Assembly: GCF_000702885.1 (NCBI RefSeq)
Contig: NZ_JNKO01000006.1
Coordinates: 1-64,000 of the forward strand
Origin: Oribacterium sp. P6A1
GTDB taxonomy: Bacteria > Bacillota > Clostridia > Lachnospirales > Lachnospiraceae
Length of the DNA stretch: 64,000 nt
Reading direction: 5' to 3'
The notes beneath the pieces were generated by a model. The model had not been told where the DNA came from, made no database searches, and saw only the letters and a list, made by a program, of their open reading frames with translations. Each line of letters begins with the position of its first letter. Position 1 is the first letter of the stretch. The translations under genes were made by a program, and so were the position numbers. Shown piece after piece: positions 29,314 to 47,349 of the stretch.

Positions 29314-31068
29314 TCACTCCACATCCTGTAATGCGGCAAGGTCCTCTTCGCCTGTTCTTATCTTTACCACCTTCTCAACAGGATATACGAAGATCTTTCC
29401 GTCTCCGATGTGGCCTGTGTAAAGAGCTTTCTTAGCGGCCTCTATAACTGACTCTACAGGGATATTGCCCACAACGACTTCGACCTTTACCTTGGGAAGA
29501 AGAGTAGCATCCACTTCAACGCCTCGATACTTCTCGCCTGCGCCCTTCTGGATGCCGCAGCCCATTACCTGGGTAACAGTCATGCCTGTAACACCGAGGT
29601 CGTTCATAGCCTTACGGAGAGTGTCGTAACGTGAAAGTCTTGCTATGATGACAACCTTGCTGATGCCTGTATCGGGGAAAGCATTAACAACCTTAACGGC
29701 TGCATCCTTAAGAGTGTCACTGGCTTCTTCGTAATCATCAGAGCCCAGGCTTGTGTTCTCGTTTACCTCCATGGTCATGGTGTTTGAAATATCCATGATG
29801 GAGAAGCCTGCATAAGCACTTGTGAGACCGTGCTCCTTTCTGTCAAGACCTACGATCTCTTCCTCTTCGGAAACTCTGAGACCGTTGAATTTTTTAATAA
29901 GTGAATAAGTGATGATGATAGTAACTACAGTCCAGGCTATGGTCACTGCCATTCCGCCAAGCTGCTTTCCGAGCTGGTAGAATCCGCCGCCATAGAAAAG
30001 ACCTTCCCTGATGCCTGCAAGTTCAAAACCCGGAGCAGAAGCAGTAGCGAAAAGACCTACGGCAAGTGTTCCCCAGATACCGTTGAACATATGAACCGCA
30101 ACGGCACCGACAGGATCGTCAACGTGGATGACATTGTCACAGAACCATACACCGAATACTACAAGTACTCCGGAAACAACACCGATAACAGCTGCACCTG
30201 CACAGTCTGTTACGTCACAAGGTGCTGTGATGGCCACAAGACCTGCGAGAGAAGCATTGAGACACATCGATACATCGGGCTTTCCGTACTTTACCCATGT
30301 AAAAATCATGCACACAACTGTAGCAACTGCAGGAGCCACTGTTGTTGTAAGGAAAACAGAACCAAGTGTGCTTACATCTGTAGCGGCAGCGCCGTTAAAT
30401 CCGTACCAGCCGAGCCAGAGGATAAACACGCCGAGAGCGGCGATGACGAGGTTATGTCCGGGAAAAGCATTGACTTTTGTGATCTTTCCTTCCTTGTCCT
30501 TAACGAACTTGCCGATACGTGGTCCAAGCATCCATGCACCGATGAGGGCGCATATACCGCCTACCATGTGAATACAGTTGGAACCTGCATAATCGTGGAA
30601 GCCCCACTGTGCCAGAAATCCGCCGCCCCATGTCCAGTGAGCTTCTATAGGATAGATGATTGCGGAGATAACTGCCGAGTAGATACAGTAGGATGAAAAC
30701 TTTGTTCTCTCTGCCATGGAACCGGAAACGATGGTTGCGGTGGTGGCACAGAATACAAGGTTGAAGACGAAGCCTGAGTAGTCAAAACTACCGTAATTGC
30801 TGAATACATCAAATGAGAACTTTCCGGCAAAGCCTCCAAGCATGTTCTCACCCAGCATCAGTGAAGCGCCGCAGATGAACCACATTACGGTTCCTATACA
30901 GAAATCCATAAGGTTCTTCATGATGATGTTTCCTGAGTTCTTTGCTCTGGTGAAACCTGCCTCGCACATGGCAAAGCCTGCCTGCATCCAGAATACCAGC
31001 GCAGCTCCGATAAGGAACCAGACACCATACACTTCACTGTGGATGGCTTCCAAAATTTCAGTTGTCAT
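29314..31068 (-). CDS. amt: Ammonium transporter fused to a PII (GlnK-like) domain
   Basis: The first 410 or so residues are a complete Amt/AmtB ammonium channel with eleven membrane helices (SYCIYSAVISAIIYPIEAHW, GFHDYAGSNCIHMVGG). After a linker (about 410-465), residues 468-575 form a PII signal-transduction domain (VVIIARLSRYDTLRKAMNDLGV...GDGKIFVYPVEKVVKIRTGE). PII proteins normally plug the channel from the cytoplasm when nitrogen is plentiful; here the regulator is covalently attached. The T-loop reads YRGVEVDATLLPKVKVE and lacks the uridylylated tyrosine of enteric GlnK, so control is presumably by direct ligand binding. Amt-PII fusions are known in clostridia. The leader holds a strong promoter, two attenuator-like units and upstream 25-bp repeats. 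Confidence 0.95.
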   Translation of the reverse strand: MTTEILEAIHSEVYGVWFLIGAALVFWMQAGFAMCEAGFTRAKNSGNIIMKNLMDFCIGTVMWFICGASLMLGENMLGGFAGKFSFDVFSNYGSFDYSGFVFNLVFCATTATIVSGSMAERTKFSSYCIYSAVISAIIYPIEAHWTWGGGFLAQWGFHDYAGSNCIHMVGGICALIGAWMLGPRIGKFVKDKEGKITKVNAFPGHNLVIAALGVFILWLGWYGFNGAAATDVSTLGSVFLTTTVAPAVATVVCMIFTWVKYGKPDVSMCLNASLAGLVAITAPCDVTDCAGAAVIGVVSGVLVVFGVWFCDNVIHVDDPVGAVAVHMFNGIWGTLAVGLFATASAPGFELAGIREGLFYGGGFYQLGKQLGGMAVTIAWTVVTIIITYSLIKKFNGLRVSEEEEIVGLDRKEHGLTSAYAGFSIMDISNTMTMEVNENTSLGSDDYEEASDTLKDAAVKVVNAFPDTGISKVVIIARLSRYDTLRKAMNDLGVTGMTVTQVMGCGIQKGAGEKYRGVEVDATLLPKVKVEVVVGNIPVESVIEAAKKALYTGHIGDGKIFVYPVEKVVKIRTGEEDLAALQDVE

Positions 31069-31127
31069 ATTTTACCCCCTTGTTTTTACGGACTTCCTGT
31101 CCGATTTGATTTTCTTGCGCCAGGAAC

Positions 31128-31168
31128 AAAAAAAGAGCGCGTCTCCCGAAAGAAACGCACCCTTGCGC
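31128..31168 (-). promoter_or_regulatory. Second hexaloop/terminator unit of the amt leader
   Basis: On the minus strand GCGC (31168-31165) and GCGT (31158-31155) form a short stem closing the hexaloop AAGGGU. The overlapping alternative is an 11-bp terminator stem (31162-31152 with 31145-31135), followed by seven T residues to 31128. The two folds share bases and are mutually exclusive. It lies 60 bp before the amt start codon. Confidence 0.6.
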
Positions 31169-31181
31169 AGAAGTATTGGTA

Positions 31182-31224
31182 AAGAAAAAGGGCGCTTCGG
31201 TTTTGACCGAAGCACCCTTGCCTC
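31182..31224 (-). promoter_or_regulatory. First hexaloop/terminator unit of the amt leader
   Basis: On the minus strand GAGGC (31224-31220) and GCUUC (31213-31209) form a 5-bp stem around hexaloop AAGGGU, with A at loop position 1 and G at position 4. The competing terminator GGGTGCTTCGGT / ACCGAAGCGCCC (31217-31206 / 31201-31190), with a CAAA loop, is followed by TTTTTCTTT. It starts about six bases after the predicted transcription start. Confidence 0.65.
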
Positions 31225-31236
31225 TTATGGTTCGAA

Positions 31237-31265
31237 AATATATACCCTTTCAAAAGCTTTGTCAA
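31237..31265 (-). promoter_or_regulatory. Sigma-A promoter of amt
   Basis: On the minus strand TTGACA (31265-31260), a 17-bp spacer and TATATT (31242-31237). Confidence 0.8.
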
Positions 31266-31285
31266 TTTCGATTTTGGAAAAACTC

Positions 31286-31335
31286 ATATAACCGGAAAGA
31301 ATATACATACATATAACCGGTTAGAATATACGTAC
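31286..31335. repeat. Tandem 25-bp direct repeat between amt and ychF promoters
   Basis: 31286-31310 and 31311-31335 match at 22 of 25 positions (ATATAACCGG, then AGAATATAC). Each is nearly palindromic around ACCGG(T). The repeats lie just upstream of the amt -35 and abut the ychF promoter, the position of an activator or dual operator site. Confidence 0.7.
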
Positions 31336-46990: not shown

Positions 46991-47074
46991 GCGGAGGTGC
47001 TGAAATTGGCAGACAGGCAAGACTAAGGATCTTGTGTCCGGTAGGACGTGTGGGTTCAAGTCCCATCCTCCGCA
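46991..47074 (+). tRNA. tRNA-Leu (anticodon AAG), copy 1
   Basis: The acceptor arm GCGGAGG/CCTCCGC, a long variable arm (GTCC/GGAC) and GGTTCAAGTCC in the T arm identify a class II tRNA with leucine features. The anticodon loop CTAAGGA reads AAG. The CCA end is not encoded. A34 in a bacterial leucine tRNA is uncommon and would need deamination to inosine to read CUC and CUA-type codons. Confidence 0.93.
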
Positions 47075-47265: not shown

Positions 47266-47349
47266 GCGGAGGTGCTGAAATTGGCAGACAGGCAAGACTA
47301 AGGATCTTGTGTCCGGTAGGACGTGTGGGTTCAAGTCCCATCCTCCGCA
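47266..47349 (+). tRNA. tRNA-Leu (anticodon AAG), copy 2
   Basis: The 84-base gene is identical to copy 1, with the anticodon loop CTAAGGA. The identity of both copies, with slight divergence in the flanks, points to a recent duplication or gene conversion. Confidence 0.93.

Follow-up and report, generated by a model that had tools for sequence, protein, structure and literature searches.

The stretch of DNA analysed here (the window, 64,000 nucleotides of Oribacterium sp. P6A1) carries a gene for an ammonium transporter on its minus strand, preceded by a promoter and by two hairpin-terminator units. The features of the locus are as follows.

31260..31265, minus strand: -35 box TTGACA of the amt promoter (direct reading and promoter scan of leaders)
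31237..31242, minus strand: -10 box TATATT, after a 17-nt spacer (direct reading and promoter scan of leaders)
about 31230, minus strand: predicted amt transcription start (from the promoter boxes)
31209..31224, minus strand: unit 1 hexaloop hairpin GAGGC-AAGGGU-GCUUC, candidate ANTAR site and antiterminator (direct reading; covariation in relatives)
31181..31219, minus strand: unit 1 intrinsic terminator, 14 bp and a U-rich run (folding; match to covariance model R1, described below)
31155..31168, minus strand: unit 2 hexaloop hairpin GCGC-AAGGGU-GCGU, 4 bp, candidate ANTAR site (direct reading)
31128..31164, minus strand: unit 2 intrinsic terminator, 14 bp and a U-run (folding; R1 match)
29314..31068, minus strand: amt, ammonium transporter fused to a P-II domain, 584 aa (Pfam PF00909 and PF00543)

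Direct reading of the minus strand confirmed the promoter that an earlier note on this DNA had placed ahead of the leader, TTGACA and TATATT at a spacing of 17, and reading together with folding confirmed its description of two units, each with an AAGGGU stem that shares bases with the 5' arm of a terminator followed by a T-run. The 5-bp stem claimed in that note holds for unit 1, where GAGGC (31224-31220) pairs with GCUUC (31213-31209), one of the five pairs being G-U, around the loop at 31219-31214. It does not hold for unit 2, which has 4 bp, again with one G-U, between GCGC (31168-31165) and GCGU (31158-31155) around the loop AAGGGU at 31164-31159. The terminator arms lie at 31219-31206 and 31201-31188 in unit 1, where the 5' arm takes in the hexaloop along with the 3' half of the small stem, and at 31164-31151 and 31146-31133 in unit 2. 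In both units, the small hairpin and the intrinsic terminator share bases and are therefore mutually exclusive. The two hexaloop hairpins are separated by 40 nt, the stem of unit 1 begins about 6 nt past the predicted start, and amt is presumably the gene that the two units control.

About 45 nt separate the predicted start from the end of terminator 1, too short a stretch to accommodate leader-peptide attenuation or a riboswitch, and both were rejected on this ground. No Rfam family reached its gathering score in the amt leader, all matches at E-values up to 5 being below that score, and a tight DNA pattern gave no match across the organism's own genome, although this pattern was so strict that the window units themselves escaped it. 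Two exact TATATTCTNNCCGGTTATATG matches (31285-31305 and 31310-31330, minus strand), 25 bp apart, lie about 19 bp upstream of the amt -35 box. They are the sole matches in the genome to a core of TATATTCTNNCCGGTTATATG at one mismatch or fewer; the pair is a possible activator site. Elsewhere on the plus strand, the window has two copies of the Clostridiales-1 RNA (Rfam RF01699; 2188-2344 and 10634-10810) and two tRNA genes of equal score (46991-47074 and 47266-47349), whose starts are 275 bp apart and which are possibly a duplication.

The amt leader folds considerably better than its shuffled versions (z -6.1, with none of 200 shuffles as good). The small hairpins are weak (-5.3 and -4.8 kcal/mol in ViennaRNA, folded with A1 paired to U6), and the terminators are strong (-24.3 and -19.0 kcal/mol). 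When 5' fragments of growing length were folded, the minimum-energy structure had the small hairpin at 24, 28, 32, and 36 nt, and the terminator, its top first, displaced it at 40 to 44 nt. A caution attaches to the loop AAGGGU in that A1-U6 pairing could close the window loops to tetraloops.

The hexaloop and its stem are maintained in related amt leaders, which had been set beforehand as a test of the earlier reading. Our sample consisted of 80 loci from named genomes (the best 80 of 590), each with up to 400 nt of upstream sequence, and the window, in total 81 regions. The Amt of one relative, Lachnospiraceae bacterium JC7, is 98% identical to that of the window. The pattern CAANGGNG, which demands no stem, was found at 93 sites in 68 of the 81 regions (67 of the 80 relatives' loci and the window), a few of which resemble chance matches far upstream. 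On the other strand it gave 5 matches, and the reversed pattern gave 6, an enrichment which excludes chance as the source of the hexaloop units. Stem positions 2, 3, and 4 were paired at 87, 87, and 72 of the 93 sites, compared to means of 72.5, 40.3, and 48.1 and maxima of 79, 56, and 62 when the 3' arms were re-dealt in 2,000 rounds. Stems such as AACGC/GCGUU, UAAGC/GCUUA, GAGAC/GUCUU, and CCAC/GUGG take one another's place among the leaders. Thirteen regions lacked strict CAANGGNG: variant loops were seen in six (L020, L031, L037, L047, L059, and L063), one region (L013) ends 101 nt upstream, and inspection of the upstream amt regions of L019, L026, L033, L036, L055, and L083 found no acceptable unit.

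How many regions bear units depends on the criterion, with 53 of 81 for a stem of at least 4 bp, 64 for the automated units, and 68 for CAANGGNG. The automated scan gave 1 unit on the reverse strand and 2 in the reversed sequence. At a stem of at least 4 bp, 16 regions had two units (including a probable chance match in two of them, L011 and L058), 37 had one, and 28 had none. The duplication emphasized in the earlier note is thus real in the window and recurs in some relatives without being general, and the recurring feature is a single hexaloop near the predicted transcript start. Among 109 hexaloop hairpins located on the 5' arms of terminators in the relatives, 69 have A1 and G4. The 67 units used further, for which A or G was demanded at position 2, all have A1, A2, and G4, and G5 is present in 62. 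The terminator starts at the loop or the closing base in 45 of the 69 hairpins and further upstream in the other 24, in 18 of them by at least 7 nt, so that the 5' arm of the small stem is included. The small stem and the terminator exclude each other in both arrangements.

We built a covariance model, R1, on 37 units; it encodes only the terminator pairs and leaves out the hexaloop stem. It models one terminator arrangement, and its E-values are rough after a short calibration. Both window units, themselves in the seed, were matched (unit 1 at 31182-31225, E = 2.1e-7; unit 2 at 31127-31170, E = 8.9e-4). We examined 65 matches from 61 relatives, comprising 25 of 29 listed loci (4 that were cut being left out) and 40 further stretches picked by E-value down to 0.0022; the count excludes one antisense duplicate and 10 listed matches that fell within other fetched stretches. 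After removal of 4 matches resembling seed sequences, a small stem of at least 3 bp was present in 49 of the remaining 61, compared to a re-dealt mean of 28.3 and maximum of 38 (5,000 rounds), and one of at least 4 bp was present in 41, compared to a mean of 14.2 and a maximum of 25. Since the hexaloop stem is absent from the model, the pairing was found without being asked for. Across the class, a stem of at least 4 bp was present at 21 of the 24 R1 loci examined (29 were listed, of which 5 were cut).

The earlier note had remarked that one hexaloop per terminator differs from the published dual layout, and this is borne out across the relatives both by the distance to the start and by scans for a first hairpin (P1). 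A strong promoter lies within 60 nt in 31 of the 53 unit-bearing leaders, and in 28 of these 31 the first base of the stem falls at -1 to +6 nt relative to the predicted start, compared to a mean of 1.1 and a maximum of 4 in 200 rounds of mononucleotide shuffling. With the stem within about 6 nt of the predicted start, there is no room for a P1 hairpin and a linker. The P1 scan, which took in A1/G4 hexaloops only, found none ahead of unit 1 in the window. Among the 67 units, an upstream A1/G4 hexaloop ending 0 to 30 nt away was seen for 1 (stem of at least 4 bp) or 5 (stem of at least 3 bp), and the same scan at random positions, which may themselves lie near units, gave 11.3 and 16.8. The sole case with a stem of at least 4 bp (L004) is the loop of terminator 1 itself.

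Dual forms were looked for in eut regions, amt units, and class wide with scripts that were similar but not identical. At 30 eutB loci with flanks of up to 1,500 nt, the scan returned one match, which was implausible, and of four longer eut regions, one (L184) had a clear dual hairpin, with P1 and P2 8 to 9 nt apart. The eut-type gene run of L184 encodes a histidine kinase and an ANTAR protein with a Response_reg domain and the phospho-acceptor Asp. An amt leader from another family of the same class (L256) has dual hexaloops directly behind TATAAT (reverse complement, about 1477-1520), GATGC-AACGAG-GCATC followed by AAAGC-AAAGGC-GCTTT. Of the features of a published ANTAR target, the window leader has the A1/G4 hexaloop (AAGGGU twice, with the A1-U6 caution) and a stem of at least 3 bp, and it lacks two hairpins joined by a short linker (5 to 12 or 2 to 25 nt). 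The units therefore depart from the dual definition in one feature, and we treat them as a variant of the class rather than as members of it.

It is unlikely that the leader is a dual element in disguise, in which hexaloops 1 and 2 would act as P1 and P2 across a long linker and terminator 1 would be a leaky pause or be handled otherwise. Two A1/G4 hexaloop hairpins do stand 40 nt apart in this one leader, and 16 of the 81 regions have two units, but 37 regions have a single unit and terminator 1 lies between the two hexaloops. The published linkers are also shorter (5 to 12 nt in PMC3369931 and 2 to 25 nt in PMC8164766), and an extension by 20 nt is described as abolishing EutV function (PMC8934654).

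The presence of an ANTAR protein in the genome was the second test set beforehand. One protein scores over the cut-off (PF03861, 60.8 bits compared to a cut-off of 27.3; E = 8.3e-17), and its gene sits between glnA and a gene for a type III glutamine synthetase, a NitR-like context. This order fits the glnA-ANTAR order that we take to be that of NitR in Clostridium saccharobutylicum. In phmmer, the protein matched Rv1626 (6e-12), EutV (8e-7), and AmiR (5e-5). Among 20 ANTAR loci of other genomes (20 of 28 matches), GlnA is encoded directly upstream on the same strand in 19, and the twentieth lies near a contig end. With residue numbers fitted to the alignment, the protein retains the EutV RNA contacts K149, E160, M172, and N173, differs at four others (R142 to E, R168 to E, R175 to S, and R177 to T), and has, like AmiR, H in place of Y164. 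The phospho-acceptor Asp of the receiver is absent from all 21 aligned ANTAR proteins (L084-L103 and L001); the column holds Cys in the Oribacterium protein and Gly (11), Asn (3), Thr (2), Ser (2), Tyr (1), or Val (1) in the other 20. The input to the NitR-like protein is therefore likely to be a signal other than the usual phosphorylation, as for AmiR. With the hexaloop and stem kept in relatives and an ANTAR protein in the genome, the ANTAR-target-like reading of the amt leader in the earlier note is supported.

ANTAR genes are present in 72 of the 80 amt-locus genomes and were not found in 8, four of which (L014, L022, L066, and L070, all titled MAG) have a unit by the strict pattern. A further ANTAR-less genome (G121, 80% complete) has a hexaloop hairpin at its amt locus as judged by eye. 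Automated units were found in 60 of 71 genomes with an ANTAR gene and in 3 of 8 without (p = 0.007), L013, with its contig end 101 nt upstream, and the window not being counted. Among the relatives, an R1 match at E ≤ 1e-3 was present in 32 of 42 with an ANTAR gene and in 1 of 19 without, a comparison that is confounded because 18 of the 19 ANTAR-less relatives have no match to the window Amt at E ≤ 1e-20; the ANTAR gene, Amt, and the units may have been lost together. The class-wide counts weigh more for this reason. In 245 sampled Clostridia genomes, with an ANTAR match below the cut-off scored as absence and kinship ignored, R1 matches at E ≤ 1e-5 occurred in 40 of 123 genomes with an ANTAR gene and in 2 of 122 without (p = 8e-12), the counts rising to 77 and 32 at E ≤ 1e-3. 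At the stricter threshold, 83 of the 123 ANTAR-bearing genomes had no match. Of the two strong matches in ANTAR-less genomes, one (L254, ahead of an AnfO gene) closes its loop with just 2 bp, and the locus of the other was cut. Three matches at E ≤ 1e-3 in the ANTAR-less relative G132, with stems of 0, 0, and 2 bp, are probably plain terminators.

We regard it as quite unlikely that a factor other than an ANTAR protein, such as P-II, glutamine synthetase, another RNA-binding protein, or a small molecule, stabilizes the hexaloop stem. P-II and glutamine synthetase are natural nitrogen sensors, ANTAR binding is itself a deduction, several EutV contact residues are changed in the Oribacterium protein, and some unit-bearing genomes show no ANTAR gene. 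Against such a factor, the loop letters A1 and G4 fit the ANTAR rule, strong R1 matches track ANTAR genes, and the ANTAR gene lies inside a gln gene run that itself bears units. We also know of no aptamer that would fit into a 5-bp stem and a 6-nt loop.

That gene run (C15; Pfam labels) has the order aminotransferase, glnA, ANTAR, type III glutamine synthetase, and gltB, with one unit ahead of the first gene and another between the ANTAR and type III glutamine synthetase genes, and a divergent asnB is preceded by a unit with a weak U-run. Another unit in the same genome (C8:112006, R1 E = 1.3e-5) stands ahead of a periplasmic binding protein gene and further transporter-like genes. A gene cluster in the relative L179 has one unit ahead of each of asnB, amt-P-II, a PurF-like gene, and gltB, and a type III glutamine synthetase gene lies among them. 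A script picked the nearest gene behind 58 of the 65 R1 matches. Fifteen of these genes encode Amt, 4 of them seed-like, as expected of a model trained on amt leaders. The same 58 also include 6 with the type III glutamine synthetase N-terminal domain, 4 with the glutamine synthetase catalytic domain, 2 for CTP synthase, 2 with a GATase_2 domain, several ABC transporter parts, and one AnfO, as well as some genes without an evident link to nitrogen, e.g., for a sporulation protein, a chemotaxis protein, and a transposase.

Three further loci are recorded here as observations. A unit with a 5-bp stem in the Oribacterium genome (G000:C5:111795-111841, L177; R1 E = 0.009) stands ahead of a gene with a PPDK_N ATP-binding domain, and in a distant clostridial genome (L259), a gene with PPDK_N and a similar start is likewise preceded by a 5-bp unit (R1 E = 2.9e-6). 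A KaiC-like label given by eye to one unit-preceded gene was replaced when the PPDK_N domain was found. At G467:C5:49296-49506 (L237), three tandem R1 matches about 83 nt apart precede an ABC transporter ATPase gene and may form a triple gate.

That the small stem is a by-product of plain terminators with an A/G-rich foot, the hexaloop having no role, is very improbable, for while A-tracts and G-rich terminator feet alone might by our reasoning favour A1 and G4, the terminator begins at the loop in 45 of 69 hairpins and leaves the 5' arm of the small stem outside it, the arms covary at the CAANGGNG sites and the R1 matches, terminators right behind the promoters of nitrogen genes need a release mechanism, and AsnB, glutamine synthetase, GltB, and Amt genes have the element in common.

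The layout of the units, their covariation, their closeness to predicted promoters, the lack of an A1/G4 P1, the gene context, and the association with ANTAR genes are all read from the sequence. We consider it probable, with good confidence, that the amt leader holds two consecutive ANTAR-type attenuators with one hexaloop each, subject to NitR-like antitermination and belonging to a wider nitrogen regulon in Clostridia. By default, each nascent small hairpin (4 to 5 bp, with a loop mostly of the form A-A-N-G-G-N) would be displaced by the terminator with which it shares bases, and transcription would stop ahead of amt. When nitrogen is limiting, the hexaloop hairpin would be bound, soon after it leaves the polymerase, by the NitR-like ANTAR protein whose gene follows glnA, and would be held past the U-run, such that transcription continues into amt; protein binding, antitermination, and the nitrogen-limitation signal are what we infer from the ANTAR literature. 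No recruiting hairpin (P1) is predicted ahead of unit 1, and with two units in series, full read-through would take two capture events, which should give sharper control. The same device would govern a nitrogen regulon in many Clostridia that includes Amt, GlnA, type III glutamine synthetase, GltB, AsnB, CTP synthase, P-II, and ABC transporters. We lean, less firmly, towards a fuller picture in which a NitR-type protein with a dead receiver uses one-hexaloop sites at the first transcribed nucleotides throughout the Clostridia, with no need of P1, where tandem units act as a multi-step gate and the form has arisen from the dual one by the loss of P1.

Ramesh et al. (2012; PMC3369931) define the ANTAR-target RNA as dual, describe dual-hexaloop RNAs in eut of Enterococcus, nasF, amiE, and nitrogen genes of Desulfotomaculum, with ammonium transporters among the targets, and give a distance of 5 to 12 nt between the hexaloops in the eut genes of E. 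faecalis. The units described here resemble those RNAs, as portrayed there, in their small A1/G4 stems, their overlap with an intrinsic terminator, the nitrogen genes behind them, including ammonium transporters, their occurrence together with ANTAR genes, and the presence of several units per genome. Unlike them, the amt units have one hexaloop per terminator, lie near the predicted start, and are sometimes tandem. An actinobacterial survey (PMC8164766) required two hexaloops, with linkers of 2 to 25 nt. Walshe et al. (2022; PMC8934654) report that EutV needs no more than one hexaloop for binding in the crystal, where it contacts G4; that both hexaloops are needed for antitermination by EutV, which is abolished when the linker is lengthened by 20 nt; that single sites are expected where the timing of a moving polymerase is no constraint; and that some mycobacterial targets depart from the dual form. 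The units agree with EutV, on that account, in having one hexaloop as the putative site, but the single sites here sit on attenuators.

The nearest functional precedent is NitR of C. saccharobutylicum, an ANTAR-family protein that, according to the review PMC6316151 citing Stutz et al. (2007), responds to nitrogen limitation by switching on GS/GOGAT genes through antitermination. The gene order around glnA and ANTAR fits this precedent, while the organism is a different one and the proposed regulon is wider. We found no description of single-hexaloop ANTAR attenuators in the literature searched, although one may exist in subscription papers or supplementary tables. What is new, on the sequence evidence, is the single-hexaloop, near-5'-terminal, and sometimes tandem ANTAR-type attenuator as a variant of the dual element. 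The authors of PMC8934654 ask why antitermination should need two hexaloops when EutV binds to one, and natural one-hexaloop attenuators, with the dual L256 amt leader as a control, would make the two-hexaloop requirement directly testable. If our reading is true, searches that demand the dual motif would miss single-hexaloop sites, and nitrogen control in many Clostridia would be assigned to one RNA-binding protein.
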